Shown here one piece after another: positions 43,646 through 58,886 of a stretch of 61,931 nucleotides of DNA. The notes under the pieces are model-generated. The model did no database searches. It was not told where the DNA came from and saw only the letters and a program-made list of their open reading frames with translations. Source of the DNA: a virus. Each line of letters opens with the position of its first letter. The stretch's first letter is position 1. The stretch lies in IMG/VR virus record IMGVR_UViG_3300008267_000131, positions 1 through 61,931 of that record; one strand, 5' to 3'. The position numbers were made by a program, and so were the translations under genes.

Positions 43646-43843
43646 AGATTTCCGATTATATTAACTAGTTAGTTAGTTAACTAGTATAGTTATATACTTA
43701 GAACATATATGTGGACTTTTTTGAAAAGTGTACGGATTTTCCGTACATCCACCCCCCAGTTTCCGGATTTTCCGTACACGTGTTACAACTCATGTCCGGA
43801 TTTTCCGTACACCCATAATTACGATGTACGGATTTTCCGGAAA
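43646..43843. repeat. Four-copy 19-bp iteron array with AT-rich palindromic flank (origin-like)
   Basis: Four 19-bp sites lie at 43729-43747 (TGTACGGATTTTCCGTACA, a perfect 8-3-8 dyad), 43760-43778, 43793-43811 and 43825-43843. Start-to-start spacings are 31, 33 and 32 bp, about three helical turns. All share CGGATTTTCCG; only the outer bases vary. To the left is an AT-rich stretch (43646-43728) holding the inverted repeat TTAACTA-N6-TAGTTAA (43661-43680). Two of the sites are identical to reverse complements of iterons inside the initiator gene at 58263-58377. The function (second origin, copy control or operator) is inferred. Confidence 0.85.
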
Positions 43844-44002
43844 CTAGTCAGACCACTTATCCGTTGGGAGTAGTGCCATGAACGTCCACCGCATCCACGT
43901 CACACCAATCCAGTAACCACCCTCGAGTGATTTATCGTAGCCAATGGACACGCACGGCAGAACAACAAACACTCCCCAGTTTTTTAAAAAGTATGTTTTC
44001 AT
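43844..44002 (-). CDS. Small hydrophobic/aromatic protein (52 aa)
   Basis: ATG at 44002, TAG at 43844-43846, ending exactly at the edge of the last iteron. The peptide is Trp/Phe/Val-rich (MKTYFLKNWGVFVVLPC, later YWIGVTWMRWTFMALL) and reads like a genuine small phage protein, possibly membrane-associated. No promoter box was clearly seen; it may be read through from the tRNA and GroES-like genes. Confidence 0.5.
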   Translation of the reverse strand: MKTYFLKNWGVFVVLPCVSIGYDKSLEGGYWIGVTWMRWTFMALLPTDKWSD

Positions 44003-44020
44003 GGTGTGAATATAATCATT

Positions 44021-44036
44021 TTCCTGACGTCAGGAA
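44021..44036. other. Perfect 16-bp palindrome next to the tRNA
   Basis: TTCCTGACGTCAGGAA is fully self-complementary and ends 2 bp from the tRNA 3' end. It could be a dimeric regulator site or an RNA hairpin; no T-run follows, so it is not a standard terminator. Confidence 0.6.
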
Positions 44037-44038
44037 CT

Positions 44039-44116
44039 TGGTGACCCCGGCACGATTCGAACGTGCAACCCACAGCTTAGAAGGCTGTTGCTCTAGTCCG
44101 ATTGAGCTACGGGGCC
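44039..44116 (-). tRNA. tRNA-Arg(TCT)
   Basis: The cloverleaf reads on the minus strand: acceptor GGCCCCG/CGGGGTC (one G-T pair), D arm GCTC/GAGC, anticodon arm ACAGC-CTTCTAA-GCTGT with anticodon TCT, T arm GCACG-TTCGAAT-CGTGC, discriminator A and an encoded CCA at 44039-44041. It decodes AGA. It lies 4 bp downstream of the GroES-like gene stop and is probably co-transcribed with it. Confidence 0.93.
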
Positions 44117-44120
44117 TCTA

Positions 44121-44684
44121 TCACTCTTCGAGCCAGTCGACTAGCGTGGCATCGATATCCTCTTCACACATCACGTATACGTTCTGCATGTCGAGCCTAT
44201 TCTCAAAGGCGTTGCGTGGGTGGAAGGTAACCTTCTGACCAACCATCTCTGGATTGGGGTGTACGAGCACCGTTCCCTGCTTCTCACTAACCAACCCCTC
44301 AGGACGCAATTTCAGCCCTCCTGAGAGCTTTTCTGGTAGCTTGTAAGGTACCACTGCCACATGACCATTAAAACTCTCCCAAATCGAAGAATCTGACCTC
44401 TTCACAAAGAACACAGAGTCCTCTGGCACCAAACACCTCGTATCATCGTCAATAAACGCCACAGAGCCCTCCATCTCTACCACCGTGTAGTGAAAGAACA
44501 ATCTGTCCCCTCTACCTACTCTAGAGCCCCTAGGAGACGCATATACGACCCCCTCCTGCTTAGCATAGTGCGTGGGCCTATACGTCGGGTCGACATACAA
44601 CACCCCTCCACCGTTCAACTCAATCTCCCTATTGTACGCATCCCTATTGATGTCCACAATAAAACGTCCAAATACACTGTCCAT
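44121..44684 (-). CDS. Phage GroES-like co-chaperonin (187 aa)
   Basis: I start it at the ATG at 44684; an in-frame start 51 bp upstream includes the promoter box. The sequence has two GroES-like halves: REIELNGGGVLYVD, then EGVVYASPRG with GDRLFFHYTVVE (mobile-loop/beta-barrel part), and PEGLVSEKQGTVLVH, VGQKVTFHP and MCEEDIDATLVD, matching the GroES C-terminal pattern around DILA. Similar double-length co-chaperonins occur in Bacteroidota phages (from memory). It would cap host GroEL to fold phage proteins. A TATATTTG box lies 18 bp upstream. Confidence 0.75.
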   Translation of the reverse strand: MDSVFGRFIVDINRDAYNREIELNGGGVLYVDPTYRPTHYAKQEGVVYASPRGSRVGRGDRLFFHYTVVEMEGSVAFIDDDTRCLVPEDSVFFVKRSDSSIWESFNGHVAVVPYKLPEKLSGGLKLRPEGLVSEKQGTVLVHPNPEMVGQKVTFHPRNAFENRLDMQNVYVMCEEDIDATLVDWLEE

Positions 44685-44702
44685 AATCAACTTATTTGAC
44701 CG

Positions 44703-44710
44703 CAAATATA
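44703..44710 (-). promoter_or_regulatory. -7 box TATATTTG for the GroES-like gene and tRNA
   Basis: Exact TAnnTTTG on the minus strand; possible -33 TTTG or TTG elements lie 17-22 bp upstream inside a G-rich (minus strand) segment. Confidence 0.6.
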
Positions 44711-44731
44711 ACCTACCCCACACCAACCAAA

Positions 44732-44915
44732 CCAATAGCTAAATCCTATCACCTGCCTGTCTTACCCCCGTAATTTTCGAGACAAACACCATTTCCAATA
44801 GCCAAAACCTATCAGCATCCCAACACCATACCCCCATCTAAATACCCCCACCACCCAGCAAAACCACTGTAAATCAGTTAACTAACCGGGTGCCCATAGC
44901 TAAAAACTATTAGCC
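44732..44915. repeat. Three ATAG-N7-CTAT dyad repeats
   Basis: Copies: CCAATAGCTAAATCCTATC at 44732, CCAATAGCCAAAACCTATC at 44795 and CCATAGCTAAAAACTATTAG near 44894. Each has an ATAG/CTAT dyad with a 7-bp A-rich centre. Spacing is 63 and 98 bp. Likely binding sites for one regulator. Confidence 0.6.
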
Positions 44916-45163
44916 AACAAACCATGTAGGTCGGGAGGAAACAATGTGAGTTGGGAGGGGCAATAACACATACAAGAAGGGGGGAGTGCCTGCGCTGCGG
45001 GAACCGCTCGCACTCACCGGGTACCCCCCGCCGGCTTTCAGCCTCACACGAGGTACCCCAACCTCCCCCAACCAGCCAACTAATGCCAAAGTAAAACTAA
45101 AAGTTTTAACCCTGCTATTAGACTGGCTAACCGGCTGAAAGTCAGTAGGGTTAGACCGGGAAC

Positions 45164-45198
45164 TTCTTGTATTATTGACGAGTCAATAAGTACAAGAA
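45164..45198. other. 35-bp inverted repeat / hairpin
   Basis: Arms TTCTTGTA and TACAAGAA enclose a second stem ATTGAC/GTCAAT with small internal loops. Possible RNA hairpin or dimer/tetramer protein site upstream of the early promoter. Confidence 0.55.
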
Positions 45199-45374
45199 AA
45201 CCCCCCAAAAACTCCCTTGGCTTGACTCGCTCTAACTTAGCGTGTGAAACTAAAGTAAGACTTTAGTCGTGTGTGAAGTTTGCGCTTGGGTTATGCTTGG
45301 GCTTTATGCGCCCTTATGCGATTACAATCCCCTTGCCATCCCTTTAGGGATGATTTCCCATTGTCTTGGATAGG

Positions 45375-45407
45375 TTTGGAAAGTTTCCGATGCTTGCCGT
45401 ATCTTTG
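45375..45407 (+). promoter_or_regulatory. Full Bacteroidota promoter TTTG-N21-TATCTTTG for the early region
   Basis: -33 TTTG at 45375-45378, 21-bp spacer, -7 TATCTTTG at 45400-45407. It drives the first early gene (ATG 45449) after a leader of about 35 nt that ends CCCCTTAATC before the ATG. Confidence 0.8.
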
Positions 45408-45448
45408 CAGCAGTTCAACCGGTCAACCGACCACAATTCCCCTTAATC

Positions 45449-45916
45449 ATGAAAACCACGACAACCACCCCAACCACCCGTAAGACTAACCGCAAGAGCA
45501 GCAAGGCTGCCCCACGTGTTAGTAGCAAGGCTACAAGTCTTGAATCAAAAGAGGCGAAGCCTCTGCCGAAGGACGTTTACTTCCGGCTTCGCTACCGATT
45601 GGCTTTACAAGCCAATAATCTTGGCTCTGCCAAGAAGTTTGCCAACATCCTTAAAAGGATGGAGGCTCCTTTGGAAGTTAAAGGTGAAACCTTTAAGACA
45701 ATGGCTAAAGCCATTGAGTACGTAGATTCATTGAAGGCTCCGAAGGCTACGCCGAAGGCTGCTCCGGTAGCAAAGAAGGTGCGTGAGCCGAAGGCCACGA
45801 GCGATTCTTTGGCTGAAGTGCTGAAGCAAATCAATGAGATGGCTACGAAGTACAATTGGTCTAAAGCCGAAGTAGCCAAAATGACTATGGCTGCTATTGA
45901 CAAGGTTGGTGCTTAA
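45449..45916 (+). CDS. Lys/Ala-rich basic protein, first early gene (155 aa)
   Basis: The N-terminal 35 residues are Thr/Lys/Ser-rich and disordered. A helical segment (about residues 40-95) is followed by a Lys/Ala/Pro linker and a C-terminal helical segment (120-150). The histone-like composition suggests a DNA-binding or host-takeover protein, but no family is recognised. It is driven by the strongest promoter-like site in the window and ends in a terminator that overlaps its stop codon, so it is probably made at high level. Confidence 0.7.
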   Translation: MKTTTTTPTTRKTNRKSSKAAPRVSSKATSLESKEAKPLPKDVYFRLRYRLALQANNLGSAKKFANILKRMEAPLEVKGETFKTMAKAIEYVDSLKAPKATPKAAPVAKKVREPKATSDSLAEVLKQINEMATKYNWSKAEVAKMTMAAIDKVGA

Positions 45917-45931
45917 GCATCAACCTTTTTT
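45904..45931 (+). terminator. Terminator overlapping the stop codon of the first early gene
   Basis: GGTTGGTGCTTAAGCATCAACC folds into an almost perfect hairpin (one G-T pair) followed by TTTTTT. The TAA stop is in the loop region. Confidence 0.75.
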
Positions 45932-45945
45932 ATTCTTTTAAATCT

Positions 45946-46071
45946 ATGAATACCTTCGAGATTACCCTTGACGGCAAGACTTACCGCATAGAGGCTTATA
46001 GCCTCCGTGAGGCAAAGACTGCCGCTGTTCTCCTTTCTATGAATCTTTATGAACTCCCCTTTGAACTTTAA
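45946..46071 (+). CDS. Small hypothetical protein (41 aa)
   Basis: ATG at 45946, TAA at 46069-46071. The product starts MNTFEITLDGKTYRIEAYSL, a strand-turn-strand, and ends in a helical/apolar part. The codon pattern is consistent with coding. Function unknown. Confidence 0.55.
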   Translation: MNTFEITLDGKTYRIEAYSLREAKTAAVLLSMNLYELPFEL

Positions 46072-46107
46072 TTTCTTTTGTCTAATCTTTGGAATCTTTC
46101 TAACACT

Positions 46108-46641
46108 ATGAAACCCTTTTCTGACCACGAAATGAGCCGAATTCAAGCGGCTCTCTTGCAGCGATTTTTAACCACCGAAGGTGCTTATCAAGACTACCTC
46201 AAAGCATTCAAGAGCGACAACGAGGAGGGCTATTCGCTATATGTTTATACCGGTGTTTCGACACATTTATTGTATACTTATTGCGCTATAATTTCTTCCT
46301 TTAATTGGGATTCACATTCAAGAGCCGAAGGAAAAACTTGGGCTGAACTCAATTCTGAGTCTACGGATTTCATAGAGTCAGAATATAAAAAGATAGACAA
46401 GTGGGTTAGGACTTCAGTCATAGCCTATGACCTTTATAGATTCCTTGGACACGAGGTCTTCGCTTCCTTTGTTGCCAATGTAGTAAGATGGAAAGTCATC
46501 AATGAATTGAAAGAATCTGAAGGGCTCAATATCATAGATGATGCGTTCACTTGGAAAGCAACATTTGAAGGTCACGACTTTTGGTCTGACTTAAGTGCTT
46601 CTTATGATGAATTCAAGACAAGTGAAGCCGCCGCACTTTAA
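46108..46641 (+). CDS. Hypothetical early protein (177 aa)
   Basis: Start chosen at the ATG at 46108 rather than the TTG 30 bp upstream. Helical protein with many aromatic residues and an acidic balance; no motif recognised. Between a 41-aa gene and the AAA+ ATPase gene. Confidence 0.6.
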   Translation: MKPFSDHEMSRIQAALLQRFLTTEGAYQDYLKAFKSDNEEGYSLYVYTGVSTHLLYTYCAIISSFNWDSHSRAEGKTWAELNSESTDFIESEYKKIDKWVRTSVIAYDLYRFLGHEVFASFVANVVRWKVINELKESEGLNIIDDAFTWKATFEGHDFWSDLSASYDEFKTSEAAAL

Positions 46642-46680
46642 TTCGGTAGCAAAATCCCTTAATCAATCAAAACCTTAATC

Positions 46681-48144
46681 ATGGAATTTTTAATCAAAAC
46701 CACGGCCGGTCAACAATTATCTTCTAAATCATTAGACACGGCACTTCGTGACGCCGGGCTTCACAAAGCCGGAGGCAGACTCACTAAATCTCAAGCCCTT
46801 TTTCGAATCAAGAAAAACGGAGCCTCTTTATACATCAGAAAGAATCACTATGAAGGCTGGACTTTAGTCGAAGACGTAGAGCAATTCACCTCGGGAGAAT
46901 CAACCTCTCAAGGCGGAAGCCCCGACGATGGACTCTCTGATTCTCAACCAATTCAATCAACCAACCCCGACATGACAACCACCACAATTCAACAAGAAGT
47001 AAAACAAAAGTCTAAAGCCGACCGCATTGCTGAACTCGAGCAAGAACTCAAGGACAAACAAGAGCGCAAGGAATCATTAGAGCAAGAGAAGCAAGAGCAT
47101 AAGAAAGACCTTGCCGAGGCTTGCGAACGCCAACAAAAACTCGAGGACATTGGTCTATGGGATGATGATTCTATGACTACTGCCCGTGAGTCTATTGAGC
47201 AGACCCAAGCCGATGCCCTAAGCCAAGCCGATGATGCTCAAGACTTGATAGAGCAGACCGAGCAGCGGATTGAGGAAATCGAGAAGGAACTCGAAGAACT
47301 CAAGGCTGCACCCGAGGAGTCTACTGATGTTCCGGTCGGCAAGAGCAAGGTCAAGCACCCAATGCAAGATGTCTTGATTCGTCGATGCAAGGCTGTTCAG
47401 ACCGCTCACAATATGAGTCAAGATGCTTTGTATCCTATGCTTGTTGGCCCGGCTGGCTCCGGTAAGACTACGGCAGCAAGGAATGTCGCTCTTGAGATAT
47501 TCGGTGAGACTGCTATCGAGGATGGCAAGTTCGGCATGATGTCTCTCAATGAAGAATCAGAACGCAGCGAAGGCTTCGGCTTCATTAGCCCTATCGACAA
47601 GATGTACAAGTCTACGGACTTCCGCAGAATCTATGAGAACGGCGGAGTATTCTTACTTGATGAGGTCGATGCTGCCAACGCCAACACCTTGACTGCTCTG
47701 AACGCTGCTATCTCGGCTCCGTTTGCTTCATTCCCCGACAAGATTGTCAAGCGCAGCCCTGACTTTATTCTGATTGCAGCAGCCAACACCTTCGGCAACG
47801 GAGCGGATGGCTTGTATGTTGGTCGGAATGAATTAGACGCAGCGACTCGTGACCGATTCTTGACTATGGTTTGGAACTACGATTGGGATGGCATTCGTGC
47901 TGCTCGCCCCGGACACAAGGCTCTTGTGACTCTTATTGAGCGGTTGTCTAACGCTGCCATTTCATTAGAGATGCAGCACATTATCTCTCCTCGGGCTGCA
48001 CTCTTTGCTCCATTCATGATTGCTCAAGGTGATTCATTGAAGGAGGCACTTGATGCTTGTGTATTCAAAGGACTACCGAAGGATGATGTAGATACTCTGC
48101 TATCCAAAGTAGGTATGTCTGTCTCTGAATTGGAAACTATCTAA
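46681..48144 (+). CDS. AAA+ ATPase, MoxR/CobS-like (487 aa)
   Basis: The N-terminal domain (residues 1-70) is small and basic. A long coiled coil (about 108-210) links it to an AAA+ module: Walker A GPAGSGKTT (256-264), Walker B FLLDEVD (324-330), sensor-1 Asn369 in IAAANTFGNG, and the DAATRDRF arginine-finger motif near 387-393. This pattern is that of MoxR/CobS/dynein-like ATPases that remodel protein complexes, often with a VWA-domain partner. The gene at 48238 may encode that partner. It is preceded by the leader motif CCTTAATC-ATG. The substrate is unknown. Confidence 0.85.
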   Translation: MEFLIKTTAGQQLSSKSLDTALRDAGLHKAGGRLTKSQALFRIKKNGASLYIRKNHYEGWTLVEDVEQFTSGESTSQGGSPDDGLSDSQPIQSTNPDMTTTTIQQEVKQKSKADRIAELEQELKDKQERKESLEQEKQEHKKDLAEACERQQKLEDIGLWDDDSMTTARESIEQTQADALSQADDAQDLIEQTEQRIEEIEKELEELKAAPEESTDVPVGKSKVKHPMQDVLIRRCKAVQTAHNMSQDALYPMLVGPAGSGKTTAARNVALEIFGETAIEDGKFGMMSLNEESERSEGFGFISPIDKMYKSTDFRRIYENGGVFLLDEVDAANANTLTALNAAISAPFASFPDKIVKRSPDFILIAAANTFGNGADGLYVGRNELDAATRDRFLTMVWNYDWDGIRAARPGHKALVTLIERLSNAAISLEMQHIISPRAALFAPFMIAQGDSLKEALDACVFKGLPKDDVDTLLSKVGMSVSELETI

Positions 48145-48154
48145 TTGATTCAAT

Positions 48155-48226
48155 ATGATTATTATTGCCGTGTTCCTTGTGCTTGTTGCACTTGCTTATG
48201 ACACTTCCAAAGAAATTCACCATTAA
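48155..48226 (+). CDS. Possible micro-peptide with one TM helix (23 aa)
   Basis: ATG at 48155, TAA at 48224-48226. The peptide MIIIAVFLVLVALAYD is a clear membrane helix followed by a short polar tail. It lies in the 93-bp gap between the ATPase gene and the 282-aa gene. Short length makes it uncertain. Confidence 0.35.
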   Translation: MIIIAVFLVLVALAYDTSKEIHH

Positions 48227-48237
48227 AATTCAAAGAC

Positions 48238-49086
48238 ATGATTTACAAACACATGTATGATTCCCCTCGGGAATTGTTTCAGTTAGCCAAATCGCTGGCT
48301 ATGACCGGACAATCTTCTCACAACGGAGATGCCGATTTTACAGGTACCGAATCTTTTGAGGAGGCCGTAGCCCTAACCGACAACGGATGGAATCCAAGCG
48401 AACTCAAAGCCAAAGCCAAGTCTATTGGACTACGAGCCGAGAAGCAGCGGATGTCTACCAAGAAGGATAACCGGGGCAGCACTCTTTTGATTGACCGATA
48501 CACCGAAGGCAGTCCCGATTGCTTCCGCCGTAAGTATCGAGAGCCAAAGGAGGACAAGCATATTCCCTTAATCTTTGAGGTGAATGAGCCGGCTTCGGTC
48601 AGCAAGAATCAAATGTTCCTCAAGGCTTCGGTAATAACGCAAGTCGTAGAGAATCTGCGCAAGCAAGGAATCTCGACAAGTATCTATGCCTACTTCGCAG
48701 TCCATGGTTACGAACTTGAAATCATTGAGGCTATCCCGGTGAAGAAGCGCAGCGAGCGTCTGCAGATTCATAAACTTGGGGCGATGATGCACCCTTCCTC
48801 CTTCAGAAGAATCTACTTTGGTAGACTCGAGAACGGCAGCAAAGGTCGCAAGTCAGAGAACAATGTACTCAAAGATTGGCAGAAGATGCCCTTCGGTAGC
48901 GGCTATGGTCGACCCACCAAGGAATTGTCTACCAACGCAGTTCAGTTTATCAAAGACTCTCTGAAAATTGACCGAGCCATCATTATCTCGTCTATCTATG
49001 AATCAAGCATTAGCCTCCGCAATGAGAATGATGCAGCCAAATGGGTAAACAAGATTGTCGATGACTGCAATGCGATGTTCAAATGA
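48238..49086 (+). CDS. Hypothetical protein, possible VWA/CobT-like partner of the AAA+ ATPase (282 aa)
   Basis: The segment VSKNQMFLKASVITQVVENL followed by a beta strand (YAYFAVHGYELEIIEAIPV), then MMHPSSFRRIYFGRLE and a GYGRP motif, matches what I recall of phage proteins annotated as VWA-like next to CobS-type ATPases. A canonical MIDAS motif (DxSxS) was not seen, so metal binding is doubtful. The gene follows the AAA+ gene, supporting a functional pair. The last 20 residues are coupled to the next membrane protein gene (4-bp overlap). Confidence 0.6.
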   Translation: MIYKHMYDSPRELFQLAKSLAMTGQSSHNGDADFTGTESFEEAVALTDNGWNPSELKAKAKSIGLRAEKQRMSTKKDNRGSTLLIDRYTEGSPDCFRRKYREPKEDKHIPLIFEVNEPASVSKNQMFLKASVITQVVENLRKQGISTSIYAYFAVHGYELEIIEAIPVKKRSERLQIHKLGAMMHPSSFRRIYFGRLENGSKGRKSENNVLKDWQKMPFGSGYGRPTKELSTNAVQFIKDSLKIDRAIIISSIYESSISLRNENDAAKWVNKIVDDCNAMFK

Positions 49087-49277
49087 AGAATCGCTATGTA
49101 TCCGCACTACTTGTTTTAGTCTTTGTCTATCTCACGACTAAAGCATTGGAGGCCGCAAGCAATGCGGCTTCCTTTCATCAGCACGTCAGATGGGATGCTA
49201 TATTCATATATGAAGGCATCCTACTTCTGATTGCAACTCTCCTCCTTGTCTTATCCTTAATCTCCAAAATCAAATGA
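49083..49277 (+). CDS. Small membrane protein, two TM helices (64 aa)
   Basis: Hydrophobic segments at residues 5-20 and 42-61 flank a polar middle. Overlaps both neighbours by 4 bp (ATGA). Unknown role; could alter the host membrane early in infection. Confidence 0.6.
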   Translation: MKNRYVSALLVLVFVYLTTKALEAASNAASFHQHVRWDAIFIYEGILLLIATLLLVLSLISKIK

Positions 49278-49768
49278 CACTCTCTTCTGAAATCAAATGG
49301 ATGGCTTTCAAAGCCGCACTCGAAACCAATCTCGATAGCCTTGTTCAAACCTTCCGAGGTGAGAAGGCTGGCATCACTATGAATGACGCTATGGAATTCA
49401 TAGACAAGCACTTCAAAAATTCTCTTGGTCATGACCTTGAGTATCATATTCGAAACAATGTCAAGCCCGACCACAAGGCAGCCAACAAAATGGTTGTCGA
49501 AACGCAGATGGGCGTTATACATTCTATCGAAAAGAATCTTGAAGAGCATGATGAAGTCTTATTAGACAAGCAGTCGGTAACGCAGTTTGCTCAAGCAGCA
49601 GTATGGATGCCGATAATGTTAGGGGTTGCTTTAGACATGTGCTATGTCAACTTCCAACATCATGGAATGATTGATGTTCAAATAGATTCAGTCATAGATG
49701 CCGGAACCGAAGAGGTATCCGGTGAACTCGATGACCTTCTCGGTGGACTTGGAATCACTAAAGAATAA
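49274..49768 (+). CDS. Hypothetical protein (164 aa)
   Basis: Helical, slightly acidic protein with a hydrophobic patch near residues 105-125. No motif recognised. Last gene before the terminator at 49793-49821, so it closes the AAA+ unit. Confidence 0.6.
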   Translation: MTLSSEIKWMAFKAALETNLDSLVQTFRGEKAGITMNDAMEFIDKHFKNSLGHDLEYHIRNNVKPDHKAANKMVVETQMGVIHSIEKNLEEHDEVLLDKQSVTQFAQAAVWMPIMLGVALDMCYVNFQHHGMIDVQIDSVIDAGTEEVSGELDDLLGGLGITKE

Positions 49769-49792
49769 TCTGCGCAATTAGTTGAACTTGAT

Positions 49793-49821
49793 GGGGAAGG
49801 GCGCAGCCTTCCCCTTCTTTT
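49793..49821 (+). terminator. Terminator after the AAA+ unit
   Basis: GGGGAAGG/CCTTCCCC stem with a 6-nt loop followed by TTCTTTT on the plus strand. Confidence 0.75.
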
Positions 49822-49838
49822 AAATCCCTTAATTAATC

Positions 49839-49973
49839 ATGAACATACCACAAACAATCCAAGTCCCCGTCTACTACTACATTGCAGACAACGGACAACC
49901 CGTATTCGACATTGAACAAATGGAAGAATACTTTGCTCAAGAATTAGATAAATTGGAAAATCAAGAATACTAA
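49839..49973 (+). CDS. Small acidic protein (44 aa)
   Basis: ATG at 49839, TAA at 49971-49973. Tyr/Glu/Gln-rich peptide (MNIPQTIQVPVYYYIADNGQ onward) with an acidic helical C-terminus. Preceded by the CTTAATTAATC leader motif, which supports the start. Function unknown. Confidence 0.55.
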   Translation: MNIPQTIQVPVYYYIADNGQPVFDIEQMEEYFAQELDKLENQEY

Positions 49974-49979
49974 TTAATC

Positions 49980-50342
49980 ATGACACAACTTCAAACAATA
50001 GACAACTTCATCCTTTATATCACGTCTGCTTCAAGTAGTCAAGATGATTTATTCGATGAGCCGATGACATTCACGCCACGTCAACTATATGACTTGGCAG
50101 ATGTCTATTCTAAACAAGAATCTTCAAATGATAAGATTCATGTTTGCACCCACTTCCTTGGAACAACCGCCGATGTCGATGACTTCACGTTTGAATGGAT
50201 GAGTCTACTTGGTAGCCCGGTAACGGCAGAACTAAAGAAAGATTCTATGGGAGCGGTGAAGGCTTGGTATTGCGAGGCTTTTGTCACGAAAGACCAAATA
50301 GAATCTTTTGACATGAAATCAGATTGGATAATTAACAACTAA
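49980..50342 (+). CDS. Hypothetical early protein (120 aa)
   Basis: Acidic alpha/beta protein; no motif recognised. The leader TAATTAATC precedes its ATG. One of a string of short early genes with gaps of 2-7 bp. Confidence 0.6.
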   Translation: MTQLQTIDNFILYITSASSSQDDLFDEPMTFTPRQLYDLADVYSKQESSNDKIHVCTHFLGTTADVDDFTFEWMSLLGSPVTAELKKDSMGAVKAWYCEAFVTKDQIESFDMKSDWIINN

Positions 50343-50349
50343 CACAACT

Positions 50350-50553
50350 ATGGAAACAAATCACATGGATTCTTACGGAGTCTTTTGTATGTGCGACCGA
50401 CTATTGACGTTTGGCGTATTAGACATCGATGAACTCGATACACGATGGGAAGTGTCTATTGCCGAATACAACAAGTTCCTAAAAAGCAAGTACAATGTTG
50501 ACACCAAGAGCGAACTTGACTGCATTGATGAATACATAACCAACACATTCTAA
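50350..50553 (+). CDS. Hypothetical early protein (67 aa)
   Basis: Acidic, helical C-terminus, two early cysteines (CMC) near residue 14. Separated by 7 bp from the previous and 2 bp from the next gene. Function unknown. Confidence 0.55.
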   Translation: METNHMDSYGVFCMCDRLLTFGVLDIDELDTRWEVSIAEYNKFLKSKYNVDTKSELDCIDEYITNTF

Positions 50554-50555
50554 TT

Positions 50556-51625: not shown

Positions 51626-51643
51626 AATTTTTGGAAACTTTCC

Positions 51644-51673
51644 TTGTGTAATTGAAATTTGTTTTTATCTTTG
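51644..51673 (+). promoter_or_regulatory. Promoter TTG-N19-TATCTTTG for the second early unit
   Basis: TTG at 51644-51646, 19-bp spacer, exact TATCTTTG at 51666-51673. An AT-rich leader of about 35 nt leads to the ATG at 51712. Confidence 0.7.
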
Positions 51674-51711
51674 TCGAGCAAAGTTGTTTTTGCAAAACTA
51701 AAATTTGATTT

Positions 51712-52098: not shown

Positions 52099-52104
52099 TT
52101 AGCC

Positions 52105-52443
52105 ATGGAAAAAGTTGAATCAATTATTGAGCGCACTATCAAGGAACTTGAGAAGCGTGGCTACAACGTAAAGCAGTCTAGGAAGCAAAAGAACTCTAGC
52201 AAGTCAAAGTCCGTAGATGTTTCATTCGCAAAGAAACTGATGTTCGAGTCTATGTATCGCATACATGAGATAGCAAAAGACAAGGCTCAGTACAATCGGA
52301 TGTACTACGTTCTTAACAGCGAGGCTTCTTTTTCACACGAAGACGCAATGACTATCATTGACTTTCATTCACGTCAGTCCATGATTATACAACAATTAAT
52401 GCATGAATATTTCAAAGAAAAAACCCAAGCCATTAGTGAGTGA
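52105..52443 (+). CDS. Hypothetical basic helical protein (112 aa)
   Basis: Lys/Ser-rich N-terminus then helices; no motif recognised. Its end overlaps the HTH gene by 41 bp in another frame. Confidence 0.55.
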   Translation: MEKVESIIERTIKELEKRGYNVKQSRKQKNSSKSKSVDVSFAKKLMFESMYRIHEIAKDKAQYNRMYYVLNSEASFSHEDAMTIIDFHSRQSMIIQQLMHEYFKEKTQAISE

Positions 52444-52657
52444 ATCTCTTAAGTCAGCTTGTTTTATGATTTCGGAGACAAAGGGTTATCGTGGTATGGG
52501 CATCACGTCTATTGCCAAAGATTGTGGAGTAGGCCAAGACCGGCTGTACAAAATCATCGAAGGCAAGAGCGGGGTGCGTGGACTTCCATTCGAGGTCTAC
52601 CACAAAATGTCAAAACGATTCCCATTTGTCGAAGAACTGCTATCGAGGGCGTTGTGA
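52403..52657 (+). CDS. Helix-turn-helix DNA-binding protein (84 aa)
   Basis: Residues 30-62 (GMGITSIAKDCGVGQDRLYK) fit a helix-turn-helix, with a basic N-terminus. Could be a regulator of early or origin-adjacent genes; the target is unknown. Overlaps the 112-aa gene and is coupled to the HNH gene by GTGA. Confidence 0.55.
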   Translation: MNISKKKPKPLVSESLKSACFMISETKGYRGMGITSIAKDCGVGQDRLYKIIEGKSGVRGLPFEVYHKMSKRFPFVEELLSRAL

Positions 52658-53013
52658 CCGAAGAGTGGCGTTTGTGTGAGATGTTCCCCATGTACGAGGT
52701 CAGCAACTTCGGTAACGTAAGGAACGCAAAAAGCAAAAGGCTACGTCGTGCAGCAGACCGATACGGACATAGACAAGTACTACTTATTGTTGTCAAGGGT
52801 CGCAAAAGAAGATTCGCTACTATCGCAAGACTTGTTCTAATGGCATTCAAGCCGGAGGACATGGGGCTAACGAAGTGGTGGCACATCGATGGCGACAAGA
52901 CCAACGACCATGTAGACAATCTTAAGTGGGTGACTTGGAATGAACTTAGAAAACTGAGAAAGCGTGCTAAGCGGAAGGCACTAAGATTATCCGCACAAAA
53001 ACCTAAATCATGA
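52654..53013 (+). CDS. NUMOD4/HNH-type endonuclease (119 aa)
   Basis: I start it at the GTG at 52654, whose GTGA overlaps the stop of the HTH gene. The N-terminus matches NUMOD4 (EEWRLCEMFPMYEVSNFGNV), followed by an HNH-like core WWHIDGDKTNDHVDNLKWV. This is the layout of small phage homing endonucleases. The C-terminus is very basic, fitting DNA binding. Confidence 0.7.
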   Translation: MTEEWRLCEMFPMYEVSNFGNVRNAKSKRLRRAADRYGHRQVLLIVVKGRKRRFATIARLVLMAFKPEDMGLTKWWHIDGDKTNDHVDNLKWVTWNELRKLRKRAKRKALRLSAQKPKS

Positions 53014-53447
53014 GTATAGTCCAAGGAGAAATCCAAAACATCGAGGTGACACCATTCAAAGACATGTTTCGTCACCAGCTTACTGTAAACGGCACCAAGT
53101 ATTCCGTATACAAGAAGTCTAACAATCCATTTGCAGCGATTGGCTCGTCCATCACGCTTCAAATCACCAACCCTACCGCCGGAACGGCAAAGGTTCTCGA
53201 GGTAGCAGGGTCGGCTCCGGTAACGCAGCAGTCATTTCAGCAGCCTTCATACACGCCACAACCGCAGTATGTCGCTCCGCAGCCTACGTACCAAGCGCCC
53301 GAGCCTAAGGCAGACAAGGATGTGCTTATCATCCGACAAACGTGCGTCAAGTCAGCTTGTGAGTTCTATGCCTCGCAGCCAATTGAAACGTATGATGATA
53401 TCATTGACCTCGCTCGTAAACTCGAGAACTATGTCTTGCAAGGATAG
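53010..53447 (+). CDS. Possible OB-fold nucleic-acid-binding protein (145 aa)
   Basis: N-terminal ~60 residues are beta-rich (KYSVYKKSN, GSSITLQITN) and could be an OB fold; a Gln/Pro-rich linker (75-100) leads to a helical C-terminal domain (108-145). Resembles phage ssDNA-binding accessory proteins only in outline. Confidence 0.45.
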   Translation: MSIVQGEIQNIEVTPFKDMFRHQLTVNGTKYSVYKKSNNPFAAIGSSITLQITNPTAGTAKVLEVAGSAPVTQQSFQQPSYTPQPQYVAPQPTYQAPEPKADKDVLIIRQTCVKSACEFYASQPIETYDDIIDLARKLENYVLQG

Positions 53448-53565
53448 AAGCGTGTTGTCTTTCATTGAGTGGATGGACAAAATTCAAAACATCTATGCTA
53501 GAAATAATTGGATGATGGATGTCGCAATCGCAAAACTGATGAGCAATGAAATACGCAAACATTGA
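53431..53565 (+). CDS. Hypothetical small protein (44 aa)
   Basis: Start placed at the ATG at 53431, within the end of the 145-aa gene. The helical peptide SFIEWMDKIQNIYARNNWMM is plausible. Overlaps the next gene. Confidence 0.45.
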   Translation: MSCKDRSVLSFIEWMDKIQNIYARNNWMMDVAIAKLMSNEIRKH

Positions 53566-53692
53566 TGAACTGAAGACCGACGTCATGCGCACTTGTTCGT
53601 TCCTTGAGCATTTCTATGAGGAACTTGATGAGTATGGCATGGAAGAGTACAAGAAGTTTATTAAAGTCCACGAATTCCTACAATCACTATGA
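53546..53692 (+). CDS. Hypothetical small acidic protein (48 aa)
   Basis: ATG at 53546, TGA at 53690-53692 overlapping the MazG start (ATGA). Helical, acidic (MKYANIDELKTDVM onward). The overlap with the MazG gene supports it. Confidence 0.55.
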   Translation: MKYANIDELKTDVMRTCSFLEHFYEELDEYGMEEYKKFIKVHEFLQSL

Positions 53693-54000
53693 GCGAAGAA
53701 CTAGAGTTTGAACACCTACGCACCGCCGTATTAGAATGGGCGGCAGAGCGTAGTCTACTGAAACCCGAGAATGCCTTCAAGCAAATGCTGAAGGTATCAG
53801 AGGAGGTCGGCGAGCTAGCCGGAGCCATTGCCAAGAATAACCGAGAGGATACCATTGATGCTATTGGCGACACACTTGTCACCATCATCATCCTATCGGA
53901 ACAACTTGGCTTAGACCCAACCGTTTGTCTATTGTCTGCCTATCAGACTATTGCCAACCGCAAGGGTAAGACTGTAAATGGTGTATTTATCAAAGAGTGA
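53689..54000 (+). CDS. MazG-like nucleotide pyrophosphohydrolase (103 aa)
   Basis: All-alpha NTP-pyrophosphatase: EEVGE at residues 38-42 and EDTIDAIGD at 53-61 supply the metal-binding acidic residues, and the C-terminus matches the family (AYQTIANRKGK). Such enzymes hydrolyse NTPs or (p)ppGpp-type signals; in phages they may keep nucleotide pools favourable. Coupled to both neighbours. Confidence 0.85.
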   Translation: MSEELEFEHLRTAVLEWAAERSLLKPENAFKQMLKVSEEVGELAGAIAKNNREDTIDAIGDTLVTIIILSEQLGLDPTVCLLSAYQTIANRKGKTVNGVFIKE

Positions 54001-54257
54001 TGAGCGAAGAACTTGCACACGATGATGTAGCATGCAACGTATGCGGCCGTGTCGGATTCCATGCGGATGATTGCTGGAAGCGTTCATTCATTGCATACAT
54101 ACCCAATAAGCATGTACTTGGTTTGTCTAAGGACAAGTCAAGCCTAGAGACTCTTTATGCAAATAAGGAGGGAGTTGTTATTGAGGAGCGTGACCCATTT
54201 GGAAACTATCCATATTACCACACTGAATTTTATTACCCATCACTTCGTGAAGACTGA
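54000..54257 (+). CDS. Small protein with zinc-knuckle-like motif (85 aa)
   Basis: Start at the ATG at 54000 overlapping the MazG stop. CNVCGRVGFHADDC (C-x2-C-x4-H-x3-C) is a zinc-knuckle pattern near residue 14; the rest is beta-rich and acidic at the end. Function unknown. Confidence 0.6.
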   Translation: MSEELAHDDVACNVCGRVGFHADDCWKRSFIAYIPNKHVLGLSKDKSSLETLYANKEGVVIEERDPFGNYPYYHTEFYYPSLRED

Positions 54258-54573
54258 TTTATTTGTAAAGAGAGTGCGTGAGCGCATGGCACGTTCGATG
54301 AGCGTGTTAGACAGCAAGCGCAAAGAGTATGTGTTCAATGACAATCCATTCCAAAACTTTGAAGAGGGTGTTGGTCTAAGCGTCGTAAGCACAAGAGAGG
54401 CTGTAACCTATGGGTATGCAGTAAAGCACCTGCAGTCAGTTCGGGCTATCATCGATAATTTCGAGTCTACAGGAGCCCTTCCGGATGAGGCGGTGATACA
54501 AGAAAAGTTTGGTGATGCAATTAATTATCTAATCATCTTAGAGCAAATGCTTCTTGAGCATTTAGAAGACTAA
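54247..54573 (+). CDS. Hypothetical phage protein (108 aa)
   Basis: I use the GTG at 54247 (11-bp overlap with the zinc-knuckle gene), because residues from DLFVKRVRERMA onward resemble a phage family with a DPFxNF-type block (here NPFQNFEEG) and a terminal DxxNYLIILE helix. An ATG at 54286 is an alternative start. Nucleotide-metabolism association with MazG is possible. Confidence 0.5.
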   Translation: MKTDLFVKRVRERMARSMSVLDSKRKEYVFNDNPFQNFEEGVGLSVVSTREAVTYGYAVKHLQSVRAIIDNFESTGALPDEAVIQEKFGDAINYLIILEQMLLEHLED

Positions 54574-54575
54574 TA

Positions 54576-54680
54576 ATGGGCAGCAGCAAGTTGGTTACGC
54601 TATGCATTAGGTTGTTCCGGTGGGGCATAGCGGCTGCCTTTTTTAGACTTTTATGCAATTCATACACTTGGTACCAATGA
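54576..54680 (+). CDS. Possible small hydrophobic protein (34 aa), overlaps a hairpin
   Basis: ATG at 54576, TGA at 54678-54680 overlapping the next ATG (ATGA). The peptide MGSSKLVTLCIRLFRWG and its continuation are hydrophobic/aromatic. The same DNA folds into a nested hairpin followed by T6 (54579-54644), so it may instead be an RNA element. Confidence 0.35.
   Translation: MGSSKLVTLCIRLFRWGIAAAFFRLLCNSYTWYQ
54579..54644 (+). terminator. Nested hairpin with T-run (possible terminator or attenuator)
   Basis: Outer stem GGCAGC/GCTGCC and inner stem GCTATGC/GCATAGC, followed directly by TTTTTT. The outer and inner stems are separated by 14 nt on the 5' side and 1 nt on the 3' side, so the fold is asymmetric. 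Confidence 0.45.
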
Positions 54681-54937
54681 ACAAGTACACCAACAGATAC
54701 GGAGACGAGTTTACGTTTGAGAAGAACGAGAACGGCAACATTGACTGGAAGGGGAACTTCAAGTACACACGATTCGGATGGGATGACGATGACAACATCA
54801 TATTCGTAGACCCAAGCGGTGGCCCATTTATATCTATTGGCTACCCACTTGAGGTCGCAGAAATCGACCGCAAGGTTGTTGGGTTTATAGACCACACAAC
54901 TCATTGGGAGATTCTAATTGAGGATAATGTGCAATGA
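54677..54937 (+). CDS. Hypothetical acidic beta protein (86 aa)
   Basis: I choose the ATG at 54677, after the hairpin. Beta-rich, Asp/Asn-rich (DDDDNIIFVDPSGGPF). Four-bp overlap with the next gene. No family recognised. Confidence 0.55.
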   Translation: MNKYTNRYGDEFTFEKNENGNIDWKGNFKYTRFGWDDDDNIIFVDPSGGPFISIGYPLEVAEIDRKVVGFIDHTTHWEILIEDNVQ

Positions 54938-55236
54938 AACGACTAACGAGAGAACAAAAGAAGGAGAAGGCAATGATTGACATCGTCAATAAGATGTTTG
55001 AGATTGCTGGACACGACGTTACCTACGACGACATCGTGGGCGTAGACGAGTGGTGGCAGAAGTACACTATGACTGTTGCTCAGGGAGATGAACTTGAGGA
55101 GTGGGGCAAGAAGTACCTTATGCGTGAACTCAAGATGCGAGCAGTCTACGCAGAGAAGGAAATGATGTGGTTCAGTGTAATGTGGGGGCTGAAGTATTCA
55201 GACTTTGACGAACACATTAAGAGTAAATTAAAATGA
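54934..55236 (+). CDS. Hypothetical protein with WW-type motif (100 aa)
   Basis: Basic N-terminus, then DEWWQKYTMTVAQGDELEEW, a pattern I recall from small phage proteins of unknown function. Coupled to neighbours at both ends. Confidence 0.6.
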   Translation: MKRLTREQKKEKAMIDIVNKMFEIAGHDVTYDDIVGVDEWWQKYTMTVAQGDELEEWGKKYLMRELKMRAVYAEKEMMWFSVMWGLKYSDFDEHIKSKLK

Positions 55237-55400
55237 AAATAACACTTTGTCCATACGTACACCATTGTGGAGATGAATGTTGCTACACCACTGGGTATGA
55301 TGTGTGGGTAGATGGTAAGAGAATAGGATTTACCACTGGAGAAGATGCCCAAGAGTTAGCAGAGCTACTAAACGAAACCTTTAACACCAACGAGAAATGA
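55233..55400 (+). CDS. Small Cys-rich protein (55 aa)
   Basis: ATG at 55233 overlaps the previous stop; TGA at 55398-55400 overlaps the next ATG. Cysteines in CPYVHHCGDECC could bind zinc; the second half is a helix. Clean coupling on both sides supports it. Confidence 0.6.
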   Translation: MKITLCPYVHHCGDECCYTTGYDVWVDGKRIGFTTGEDAQELAELLNETFNTNEK

Positions 55401-55753
55401 AAATCAGCACAGGAAAATACGTTGACCAATTCGCCATCGGTATAACGTGGTTACGCTACCCAAACGTAACGTGGTCAATCATCTTTGACCTTGGTCTATG
55501 GTACGTAGAAGTATCAAATGATTTCAAAGAAACAGATGAATGGATTCCATACTTCACAGAGAACGCTATCGTATGCGACAGATGCGGCTCTCCAAATGAC
55601 GTAAGCCCTCATTTCAACGACAAACAAGAATTGGAATTGGTATGTGCCGAGTGTATACGCTATGAAGACTACATGAATAGCTTAACCAATGTCAAGCCAA
55701 AGGCTGACAAAAAGAAAAGCAAAGTAAAATCAAAGGTTGACAAGAAATCATGA
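55397..55753 (+). CDS. Zinc-ribbon protein (118 aa)
   Basis: The N-terminal half is beta-rich; CDRC (near residue 60) and CAEC (near 83) form a zinc ribbon; the C-terminus is a Lys-rich tail. Possibly a nucleic-acid-binding protein; unassigned. Confidence 0.6.
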   Translation: MKISTGKYVDQFAIGITWLRYPNVTWSIIFDLGLWYVEVSNDFKETDEWIPYFTENAIVCDRCGSPNDVSPHFNDKQELELVCAECIRYEDYMNSLTNVKPKADKKKSKVKSKVDKKS

Positions 55754-56055
55754 CAAAAGAAGAACAAAGCATTTACTTGGAGCGAGTTCTCGTAAAGTTG
55801 ATTATCACCATGCAGGTACAGCTTGAGCTATTTGATGAACTACAGCTAACAAAAGCATATCGGCACAACATTAAAAAGTCTACCAACATGCTGTCCAAAG
55901 ACCTCGAGGAATATCTCCGAGAGATGTATGGATACATGAACATGGACAAGGAGAAGGAGGAGTCTTTTCTAGCCATCAAGCGTGGTGTAGAAATGATGCT
56001 AAAACGCACCGTAGATGAACTTTACGATGATGGGTTTGAACCTATTAATGAGTAA
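55750..56055 (+). CDS. Hypothetical helical protein (101 aa)
   Basis: Almost all helix, acidic and Met/Leu-rich. Coupled to the zinc-ribbon gene. The stop codon is part of the next promoter box. Function unknown. Confidence 0.55.
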   Translation: MTKEEQSIYLERVLVKLIITMQVQLELFDELQLTKAYRHNIKKSTNMLSKDLEEYLREMYGYMNMDKEKEESFLAIKRGVEMMLKRTVDELYDDGFEPINE

Positions 56056-56060
56056 ATTTG
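56053..56060 (+). promoter_or_regulatory. -7 box TAAATTTG upstream of the recombination genes
   Basis: Exact TAnnTTTG overlapping the preceding stop codon, 19 bp before the HNH gene ATG at 56080. No well-spaced -33 element was found. Confidence 0.5.
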
Positions 56061-56079
56061 TACGCTAATTTTTACTGCC

Positions 56080-56337
56080 ATGAAGAACCACACCAAAGTT
56101 TATCTAACCGAAATGGGATACGACACAACCGATTTCATTTCATGCGAGGTGTGTGGCAAAAAGGCAGTAGACATTCATCACATTCAGCCACGGGGCATGG
56201 GCGGCAGCAAGCTTCTTGACACCGTAGACAACCTTATGGCGCTATGCAGAGAGTGCCATCACGAAGCGGACTTCGGAACCAAATTACCCAAAGAATCATT
56301 AATGGCTATCCACACAATGCGCATGGCCGGACTATAA
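56080..56337 (+). CDS. Small HNH endonuclease (85 aa)
   Basis: CEVC (22-25), the HNH core DIHHIQPRGMGGS (31-43), Asn51 and CRECH (56-60) make a complete compact zinc-supported HNH nuclease. Such stand-alone domains cut DNA in packaging, recombination or homing. Here it heads the recombination/replication unit. Confidence 0.82.
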   Translation: MKNHTKVYLTEMGYDTTDFISCEVCGKKAVDIHHIQPRGMGGSKLLDTVDNLMALCRECHHEADFGTKLPKESLMAIHTMRMAGL

Positions 56338-56342
56338 ATTTT

Positions 56343-56648
56343 ATGAGCAAAGTTGTTTATCGAAGCACCAGCGGACGTGAGGTGTTCTTCGAAAAGGTTG
56401 ATGACGAGACCATCCTCATGACCAATGTCCCAAAAGCCAACCTGAAAACACATGATAGGTGTGGCAGAATTATACTACCAAGCGTAGTTAAAATCAATTT
56501 TCCTGGTGGCCCATACCTTACCCAGCACATGAAAATGTCGCTGATAAGTCCTGAGTTCGCCAATATGTACGCAGATATCATAATCTCCAGAAGTAAAAAA
56601 ATCGGCAGCGGTTGGTATATCGTCTGCTACAAACGCTATCCAAAATGA
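56343..56648 (+). CDS. Hypothetical protein (101 aa)
   Basis: Start at the ATG at 56343 (an earlier in-frame start overlaps the HNH gene). Beta-rich basic protein ending KIGSGWYIVCYKRY. Coupled to the YqaJ recombinase (4-bp overlap), so a role in recombination is possible. Confidence 0.55.
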   Translation: MSKVVYRSTSGREVFFEKVDDETILMTNVPKANLKTHDRCGRIILPSVVKINFPGGPYLTQHMKMSLISPEFANMYADIIISRSKKIGSGWYIVCYKRYPK

Positions 56649-57655
56649 TTACAAACAAATCCTTACCCAAACACATCAAGGCGGTAGACACATCCAAAAT
56701 GTCCCGCAAAGAATGGGAGCAGTTCCGTGGAACGCTCACTACACTTGGAGGCTCAGATGTTGGTACATGCATCGGCCTCAACAGGTGGAAGTCTAATATC
56801 GAACTATTCTATGAGAAGCTTAAGCTATACAAGCGTGAGTTTCATGATAGCATACCTATGATGATGGGTCGTGAGCTTGAGGCTTCAATCCGAAAACTTA
56901 TTGCCTACTATGACATCGAGAACCCAGATGCATTCTTAGACAACTACCACGCTGGGAAGAAGGTCAACTTAATCCGTCAGCGTCATGCCACGTTCTTTAA
57001 CGATAACGTACCTGAGCTTCATGCAAACATTGATGGTCTAATCAAAATCAAAGGGCGTGATGATTGGGGTGTTGCAGAGATTAAGTACCAAAGCGGTCAG
57101 TCTACCCGTGTTTGGGAGAACGGAATCAACCCGTCGTACATCGCTCAGAGCATGGCATACATGGAGGTTCTTGAACTGGATTACGCTGTGCTTGTCCTTA
57201 TCGAGGATGCTAACCAGTGGAACGTGCACGTTATTGAGCGCAATGATGAATTGTGGGCTCAGTTCTATCCGACCATTAAGGATTTCGTTGAACGCTTATC
57301 TATGGCGAAGTCAATGATTGAAGATTCTGTCGATGAGTCGGAAAAATTCCAACAAGCATCCACGTTCGAGCCTACGGCTTACACGGAGCAAGCCAAGCCC
57401 TATGAATCTTTTCTCTCCGACTACGCTAAGACAAGAGACAATGAACTCGTAGTGGAAGGCGATGAAGAGACTTTGCTTATCGCCAAGGACATCGTTGAGC
57501 GAAGCGAGGAGTTAAAGGGGCTGGAAGAGCAGCTTAGACACCGTAAGAACCTTGTTAGGAAGTACATGCTCGACAATCAAGCTCAAGTTATTACCTTTGG
57601 TGACGCCGGTAACATAACCTATCGGAGCCAATTAAGATTCAACATCAAATTATGA
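56645..57655 (+). CDS. YqaJ-type viral recombinase / exonuclease (336 aa)
   Basis: Start at the ATG at 56645, coupled to the previous stop. Lambda-exonuclease-fold markers: TLGGSDVGTCIGLNRWKS (33-50), a conserved Glu region around MMMGRELEAS, catalytic Asp130 in HANIDG, and E145-x-K147 in WGVAEIKYQS. The C-terminal third is a coiled coil. Such enzymes resect dsDNA ends for single-strand annealing; the SSB-like gene follows immediately. Needs a free DNA end as substrate. Confidence 0.85.
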   Translation: MITNKSLPKHIKAVDTSKMSRKEWEQFRGTLTTLGGSDVGTCIGLNRWKSNIELFYEKLKLYKREFHDSIPMMMGRELEASIRKLIAYYDIENPDAFLDNYHAGKKVNLIRQRHATFFNDNVPELHANIDGLIKIKGRDDWGVAEIKYQSGQSTRVWENGINPSYIAQSMAYMEVLELDYAVLVLIEDANQWNVHVIERNDELWAQFYPTIKDFVERLSMAKSMIEDSVDESEKFQQASTFEPTAYTEQAKPYESFLSDYAKTRDNELVVEGDEETLLIAKDIVERSEELKGLEEQLRHRKNLVRKYMLDNQAQVITFGDAGNITYRSQLRFNIKL

Positions 57656-57960
57656 AAGACGTAAAATTTGCAGCAGAGGGCGTGTTTGTCGGCAAAGTAA
57701 ACACCACCTCAATCGGTTCTGGAGCCGGTAAAGGAATTGTTCTTGTAGACTTTGTAATCAATAACAGCATCCAAGATAACCGTGGAGTTGTCAAGGAGCA
57801 GCCGCTCAAGATTACGGCCTACAATAAAAACGCAGCGCTGTTGGATGCAATCAAGATTGGTGACACGGTAGTTGTTAATGGGTACGTTCGTGGGAAGTAC
57901 AACGATGGTAAGGACGAGTATTGGACTAACCTCGTGATGCAAACTATCCGCATCCTGTAA
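57652..57960 (+). CDS. Single-stranded DNA-binding protein, OB fold (102 aa)
   Basis: OB-fold pattern: GVFVGKVNTT, VDFVINNS, PLKITAYNKNAALLDAIKIGD and VVVNGYVRGKYN fit SSB strands L1-L5. It lacks an acidic tail (ends TIRIL), unlike the second SSB-like protein at 60412. Overlaps the YqaJ stop by 4 bp and probably works with it. Confidence 0.75.
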   Translation: MKDVKFAAEGVFVGKVNTTSIGSGAGKGIVLVDFVINNSIQDNRGVVKEQPLKITAYNKNAALLDAIKIGDTVVVNGYVRGKYNDGKDEYWTNLVMQTIRIL

Positions 57961-58044
57961 AAAAGAAGAGGGGCCGTAGCCCCTCATCTCCCCTTAATCA
58001 ATCATTAAACACCAACCAAAGTGTCCAACTATGACCACAAATAT

Positions 58045-58059
58045 ATGGAATAATTCCAT
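58045..58059. promoter_or_regulatory. 15-bp palindrome ATGGAATAATTCCAT upstream of the initiator gene
   Basis: Perfect 7-bp arms around one base, in the leader 14 bp before the initiator ATG. A candidate operator for initiator autoregulation or another dimeric regulator. Confidence 0.5.
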
Positions 58060-58073
58060 CTAAACAAAGTTGT

Positions 58074-58886
58074 ATGAGCAGTATTTTAGAAAAAGTTGTT
58101 TTAGATGAGCGTTTGTCGCTCAAAGCCAAGGGGTTATTTGTGCTTTTGTACACCTCAGGCACCAACACTAGGAGGGCAATTTCAATGTCAAAGGATGGGC
58201 GTGACGCACATTACGCTGCCTTTGCGGAGTTGAGAGAGCTTGACTACATTCAGCACCTACCATGTACGGAAAATCCGGACATGCCATCGAGTGAGTGTAC
58301 GGATAATCCGGACACAAGTGCCGTTTCATGTACGGAAAATCCGGAAATTGCACCCGAGTTTCCGGAAAATCCGGACACATCAGAAAAATTGGTCTCCCCC
58401 CTTGACAATCCCCCCTCCCCAAAAGAGAAAGAAAAGACTACTACAAGTAGTAGTCCAAAAGAAAGAGAAAAGGGGTTCAGAGCGCCAAAGGTCGAAGAGG
58501 TCATGGTGTACATGACCGAACGTGGATGGAAGGGTGCCAAAACCCAAGCCGAGGCATTCATCGATTTCTATTCATCCAAAGGCTGGATGATTGGGAAGAA
58601 CAAGATGAAAGACTGGAAGGCCGCTGTCCGCACTTGGGAGCGCCACGGAGATGTTGAACGTATCGAGACACAACAAGACCCACGGGTTGCAAGATTGTTC
58701 GAGATAGACTGGGATTCGCAGCCAGATGAACGAGTCGTGAAAGCATCAGTCTATTGCGTTGCCAACAGAGTTAACCCTCCAAAGGCGCTTGTCAAGCGGT
58801 ACTTCAACAACCTCAAGCTTGACCACGAATTCAAAGCGGCATGCAAAGAGCAAGGACTTGAACCAAAAATGCTTGCTGCCAAATGA
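58074..58886 (+). CDS. Lambda-O-like replication initiator with iterons in its coding sequence (270 aa)
   Basis: Three parts: an N-terminal winged-helix domain (residues 1-60; LSLKAKGLFVLLY and AAFAELRELDYI fit replisome-organiser proteins), a linker made of near-repeats CTENPD/CTDNPD/CTENPE/FPENPD (64-101) encoded by four 19-bp iterons, and a C-terminal helical domain (140-190) with FYSSKGWMIGKNKMKDWKAAVRTW, the pattern of Bacteroidota phage replication proteins. The architecture parallels lambda O: DNA-binding domain, origin within the gene, and helicase-recruiting C-terminus. It is coupled to the helicase gene (4-bp overlap). It is expected to bind the iterons and load the helicase. Confidence 0.78.
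   Translation: MSSILEKVVLDERLSLKAKGLFVLLYTSGTNTRRAISMSKDGRDAHYAAFAELRELDYIQHLPCTENPDMPSSECTDNPDTSAVSCTENPEIAPEFPENPDTSEKLVSPLDNPPSPKEKEKTTTSSSPKEREKGFRAPKVEEVMVYMTERGWKGAKTQAEAFIDFYSSKGWMIGKNKMKDWKAAVRTWERHGDVERIETQQDPRVARLFEIDWDSQPDERVVKASVYCVANRVNPPKALVKRYFNNLKLDHEFKAACKEQGLEPKMLAAK
58263..58475. other. Predicted replication origin inside the initiator gene
   Basis: Four 19-bp iterons at 58263-58281, 58296-58314, 58329-58347 and 58359-58377 (spacing 33, 33, 30 bp, all in one reading frame). They are followed by purine-rich A/G tracts (58421-58435 and 58457-58475) flanking the perfect palindrome GACTACTAC-AA-GTAGTAGTC (58436-58455). This matches the lambda ori plan of iterons, A-rich unwinding region and inverted repeat. 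Confidence 0.75.

Follow-up and report, generated by a model that had tools for sequence, protein, structure and literature searches.

Two distant arrays of one 19-bp iteron in an uncultured viral genome: a probable SPP1-like two-origin system

The viral contig IMGVR_UViG_3300008267_000131, analyzed over its whole length of 61,931 bp (the window), carries two distant four-site arrays of one 19-bp dyad. Array B lies inside the gene of a predicted replication initiator and array A between genes. We consider it reasonably probable that the two form an SPP1-like two-origin system in which both arrays are bound by the one initiator.

Results

The perfect core CGGATTWTCCG was found exactly eight times in the window, at 43733, 43764, 43797 and 43829 on the plus strand (array A, 43733-43839) and at 58267, 58300, 58333 and 58363 on the minus strand (array B, 58267-58373). 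Allowing one mismatch gave 11 matches against 1.5 expected from dinucleotide shuffles, none of 100 shuffles reaching 11. Successive sites are about three helical turns apart, with steps of 31, 33 and 32 bp in array A and 33, 33 and 30 bp in array B. A scan of the window for clusters of dyad-symmetric 11-mers returned only these two arrays, and a scan for 10-mers common to two distant clusters gave 19 k-mers, the 15 listed of which all lie in arrays A and B. These results bear out a first-pass annotation of the sequence, which had described eight sites with the array A spacings given above, two of them (43793 and 43760) being reverse complements of sites in the other array (58263 and 58329, respectively). 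Its placement of one array in a gene and the other outside also holds, with array B within the open reading frame (ORF) 58074-58886 and array A between two leftward ORFs, as does its observation that the flanking segments lie on the same side of both arrays when read in iteron orientation.

The full site, TGTMCGGATTWTCCGKACA, is kept in both arrays across related phages. Comparison of 14 array A sites from three lineages with 16 array B sites from four extends the dyad outward, with T at -2 and A at +12 invariant and T at -4 and A at +14 nearly so. The outer positions are common to array A, which does not code for protein, and to array B, which codes for a variable disordered linker, so recognition of both by one protein would be the simplest cause of the common extended dyad.

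Array A is intergenic: a small leftward ORF has its stop codon on one side of it (43844), and the leftward gene 43322-43633 starts on the other. Nowhere in the window is the duplex less stable, at 40, 60 or 100 bp, than in the neighboring segment 43654-43713, which has the expected look of a DNA unwinding element; we propose this as its role. This AT-rich segment is nearly invariant in two related contigs (G012 and G014), where the neighboring genes are 70-80% identical. The array itself is retained, with four to five sites, in all three contigs that cover the locus: one is 99.8% identical there and has four sites, and two lineages of about 73-81% identity have five, at steps of 31/33/31/32 bp. 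An assembly artefact was considered and ruled out, a second contig carrying array A at 99.8% identity. No match to the array A region was found by BLASTN among 50,697 phage records, an Rfam scan near the array returned tRNA only, and the single-strand folding signal of the flank is weak (z of -1.7).

The iterons of array B encode initiator residues 64-102, of which all but a few belong to the linker. Ten initiator relatives, at 95-100%, 83% and 76% protein identity, all retain an in-gene array of three to four sites at 33/33/30-bp steps; one of them (L012) has one altered site. The first-pass annotation had named relatives that keep the initiator and lack the sites as grounds for abandoning its proposal, and neither these ten nor the three contigs covering locus A are of that kind. 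A clean natural 33-bp in-frame deletion in contig L013 (729-1505) removes one in-gene iteron unit.

At residues conserved across four lineages, codons are identical at 14 of 15 positions in the iterons and 22 of 24 in the adjoining flank, as opposed to 50 of 132 elsewhere in the gene (p = 7e-7 for the flank). The iterons and flank of array B thus have a function at the level of DNA. The flank, some 85 bp of coding sequence, is almost completely conserved at synonymous sites and runs from CT-rich to GA-rich around an 18-bp palindrome. Single-strand folding of this flank gave no significant signal (z of -0.8). The first-pass annotation had the side of each flank right; it understated the instability of the A flank, which ranks lowest in the genome for duplex stability, and, for the B flank, which is only moderately AT-rich, the synonymous constraint.

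Six related contigs span the junction of the two ends of the record, adding 58 bp there, and for this reason we take the genome to be circular or circularly permuted, at about 61,989 bp. On such a circle the arrays would be separated by 14.5 kb along the shorter arc and by about 47 kb along the longer. Array A has the stronger melting element, and 71% of coding bases would be co-directional with bidirectional forks leaving it, as against 29% for array B; this is weak evidence that A fires first. GC skew tracks gene strand and does not place an origin, and no DnaA-box-like sites were found near either array. The terminase relatives are mostly Flavobacterium and Cellulophaga phages, and Bacteroidota promoter-like TTTG-N-TAnnTTTG motifs occur at 44731 (-) and 45375 (+); from these we infer that a Bacteroidota host is likely.

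The initiator is of replisome-organizer type, and its N-terminal helical domain aligns to relatives that score above the cut-off for PF13730 (HTH_36), the window protein itself having no direct Pfam match. In its structure model (mean predicted local distance difference test score, pLDDT, 68) the linker residues 69-132 fall below 50. A Foldseek search of this model against the PDB gave no meaningful match (best E of 2.4), and we base no fold claim on it; a BFVD search gave weak matches, among them "replisome organizer." The neighboring genes were assigned by homology (Table 1), and the start of the helicase gene overlaps the end of the initiator gene. At the start of the window, a minus-strand gene (2-10036) that encodes 3,345 aa or more runs off the sequence and is seen only if open-ended ORFs are allowed.

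Table 1. Arrays, flanking elements and genes of the two loci
Feature	Position	Strand	Remarks
Array A iteron 1 (19-bp dyad)	43729-43747	+	Perfect core
Array A iteron 2	43760-43778	+	Perfect core; reverse complement of 58329-58347
Array A iteron 3	43793-43811	+	Perfect core; reverse complement of 58263-58281
Array A iteron 4	43825-43843	+	Abuts stop codon of small leftward ORF
AT-rich palindrome-bearing segment by array A, proposed DNA unwinding element	43654-43713		Lowest duplex stability, near-invariant
Leftward gene, start about 20 bp beyond AT-rich segment	43322-43633	-	phrog_13182; frame confirmed by third-position substitutions
Small leftward ORF, 52 aa, ends against array A	43844-44002	-	Read from sequence; weak third-position signal
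Array B iteron 1, in initiator gene	58263-58281	-	Perfect core, kept in relatives
Array B iteron 2, in initiator gene	58296-58314	-	Perfect core, kept in relatives
Array B iteron 3, in initiator gene	58329-58347	-	Perfect core, kept in relatives
Array B iteron 4, in initiator gene	58359-58377	-	Perfect core, kept in relatives
Element by array B: CT-rich tract, ACTACTACAAGTAGTAGT palindrome, GA/A-rich tract	58398-58482		Synonymous-site constraint
Predicted initiator, replisome-organizer type, 270 aa: N-terminal winged helix, disordered linker (array B), C-terminal domain	58074-58886	+	
DnaB/RecA-like replicative helicase	58883-59842	+	PF03796 above cut-off; PHROG primase/helicase
YqaJ/RecE-like recombination exonuclease	56612-57655	+	Homology
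Possible single-strand DNA-binding protein, weak	57652-57960	+	PHROG match to such proteins at E = 0.02 only
VRR-NUC nuclease/Holliday-junction-resolvase-like	60661-61062	+	PF08774 above cut-off; phrog_5702

A DNA-pattern search for paired cores in 2.9 million viral contigs gave 42 loci for testing, not counting the three array A contigs, and 39 of these core arrays lie inside winged-helix initiator genes that match the initiator N-terminal profile; the 39 are not all independent, as several of the loci are from close relatives of the window, and the set also supplied a few members of the profile. On this basis array B is, as far as sequence can tell, a standard in-gene origin array of the lambda O-like kind. 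Cultured Bacteroides and Parageobacillus phages also carry CGGAAAATCC repeats inside the gene, at the corresponding position. Pairs of CGGATTWTCCG in HTH_36-like initiator genes, where they encode "TENP" linker repeats, form a widespread origin signature (L093-L135, L253, L254, L255 and L258) and offer a practical marker by which initiators and in-gene origins can be recognized in uncultured phages from several groups of hosts.

A second array is another matter. We found none that was convincing among the whole contigs listed with in-gene arrays or in two-cluster scans of ten genomes or contigs whose initiators are related, many in both sets being fragments; five cultured phages gave noise-level 9-mer pairs only. 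The two-cluster scan is blind to P4-like repeats closer than 12 bp. Two phages related by terminase, MW202828 and a Flavobacterium elemo phage, have no comparable arrays. The second, intergenic array was seen only in the window's own lineage, where it is constant. A cluster of three CGGATTTTCCG-like sites at 56958-56998 of a 93,412-bp contig (G064), 30 kb away from the intact initiator gene, was rejected as an independent intergenic array, since it resembles a decayed duplicate of the linker of that initiator; decayed copies of this sort are a possible route to intergenic arrays. Elsewhere, a 34.9-kb viral contig (L242) has three GTCGGATTATCCGAC-type sites at 3955-4414, outside any initiator-like gene. 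The Lactobacillus phage LL-H (L256) has an annotated putative intergenic origin (11170-11440) far from its initiator gene ORF299, and no 9-mer cluster common to the two was found.

Discussion

The arrangement that we favor is one in which the initiator binds the same dyad at both arrays, array B acting as an in-gene origin of the lambda O or SPP1 oriL kind and array A as a second, intergenic origin of the SPP1 oriR kind. On each array the initiator, its sites about three helical turns apart, would assemble into an ordered complex that opens the adjoining element and recruits the helicase encoded next to it. Theta replication would then start at one array, A having the better melting element, and the other would be either a further start site or, as has been proposed for SPP1, a barrier of bound protein at which a fork stalls and recombination-dependent concatemer synthesis is set off. 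A more specific division of labor is possible, and we offer it tentatively: two unequal working origins under one initiator, with intergenic A and its exceptional melting element used for the first theta rounds, and the mirrored in-gene B with its palindrome-bearing CT/GA-rich element as a fork barrier or site of recombination-dependent restart, in a Bacteroidota-type phage family.

Several points weigh against a two-origin system. Binding, melting, origin firing and any switch in replication mode are inferred from sequence. Arrays A and B were seen together on one contig only in the window. The flank of B is only within the least stable 3-4% of the genome (40-60-bp windows) and is without a classical AT-rich tract, and bidirectional forks from B would oppose 71% of coding bases. 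The likeness to SPP1 is one of layout and gene content.

Array A might have a role other than that of an origin. If it were an operator at which bound initiator controls the leftward genes (43633-42894), negatively or positively, with the AT-rich segment as their promoter, the distance of about 20 bp between the end of that segment and the start codon (43633) would fit, and winged-helix proteins are often transcription regulators. The segment, however, holds neither a TTTG-N-TAnnTTTG promoter, the nearest in leftward orientation lying at 44731, ahead of all the genes of the leftward group, nor a leftward sigma70-like match, and four to five sites with a 45-bp near-invariant segment exceed the usual operator; we therefore regard this explanation as unlikely. 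We give still less credence to array A as a copy-control or titration locus like incA of P1, where initiator-bound A would handcuff B and restrain the firing of B as sole origin. The same sites in mirrored orientation at a distant locus of the same circular genome are what such a mechanism would use, but it needs no melting element, and the DNA beside A is highly conserved and has the lowest duplex stability in the genome. Copy control would also be of little use to this phage if it has no plasmid stage, and the initiator is not of the plasmid RepA type that an incA-type mechanism calls for, matching no plasmid Rep family in the searches run.

The unequal flanks, AT-rich at A and CT/GA-rich with a palindrome at B, could mean different jobs, as would be expected if A and B were halves of one bipartite origin, both required in cis. 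This is the case for ori and crr of P4, which have type 1 repeats in common and are about 4.5 kb apart. The initiator of P4, the alpha protein, is nevertheless unrelated to the 270-aa winged-helix protein of the window, and initiators of this class usually have an in-gene array and no second one, so that an array like B is normally enough; a bipartite origin seems improbable to us. The same contrast of an extreme A flank with a B flank that is not strongly AT-rich would fit array A as the sole working origin, B being a relic or serving autoregulation of the initiator gene. Against this stand the strong synonymous constraint on the B iterons and flank in four lineages and the recurrence of similar in-gene arrays across phyla, and we rate it, too, as improbable. 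The first-pass annotation had proposed two origins, or one origin plus a control locus, in an arrangement that it did not know from Bacteroidota phages; the proposal fits all the sequence evidence, which gives good support to one initiator with two origin-like arrays, and the two-array layout does have a precedent at large, in SPP1.

Compared with known systems, the in-gene half of the arrangement resembles ori-lambda, where four iterons and an adjoining melting region lie in the middle of the O gene and where, among lambdoid phages, iteron number varies by in-frame units, as in L013. Lambda differs in having one array, with 18-bp sites at 20-24-bp steps as against 19-bp sites at 30-33-bp steps here. 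The window has the features of an in-gene origin initiator: iterons in linker-coding DNA, a winged helix recognized through relatives, and an adjoining helicase gene. Replisome-organizer/DnaD-like HTH_36 initiators with in-gene CGGAAAATCCG ("TENP") repeats, for example in Bacteroides phage C1_85S2P and Parageobacillus phage NIIg3.2, have the same class of N-terminal domain and the same site core in linker-coding DNA, but their sites are mostly at 15- or 30-bp steps, and none of them gave a convincing second array of these sites. P4, compared through the annotation of its own record, likewise has initiator repeats common to two distant loci, but its initiator is the alpha primase-helicase, its repeats are 8 bp long, crr consists of two 120-bp repeats, and neither array lies in the initiator gene.

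To our knowledge, the evidence for two-origin phages with one common initiator rests largely on SPP1. An apparently unrelated second lineage with the same layout and similar spacing would, if true, suggest that the arrangement is useful in itself, as a start plus a switch, and the present lineage offers a system for testing why. Of particular interest is the division of labor between arrays with visibly different flanks, be it a roadblock and theta-to-sigma switch, copy control or a bipartite origin.

In SPP1, oriL lies inside gene 38 and oriR is intergenic, 12-13 kb away, and both have similar direct repeats and an AT-rich element and are bound by the one initiator gp38 (G38P) (PMC3485210, PMC6316719). 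The window has the same combination of in-gene and intergenic arrays of one site, 14.5 kb apart, and, like SPP1, encodes an exonuclease, a helicase and a resolvase, here a resolvase-like nuclease. It differs in host group, in the mirrored orientation of its arrays, in the unlikeness of its two flanks and in that no separate helicase loader gene was recognized. What we describe adds a case to a kind of system already known and does not establish a new one; it was found in a different phage group from SPP1.

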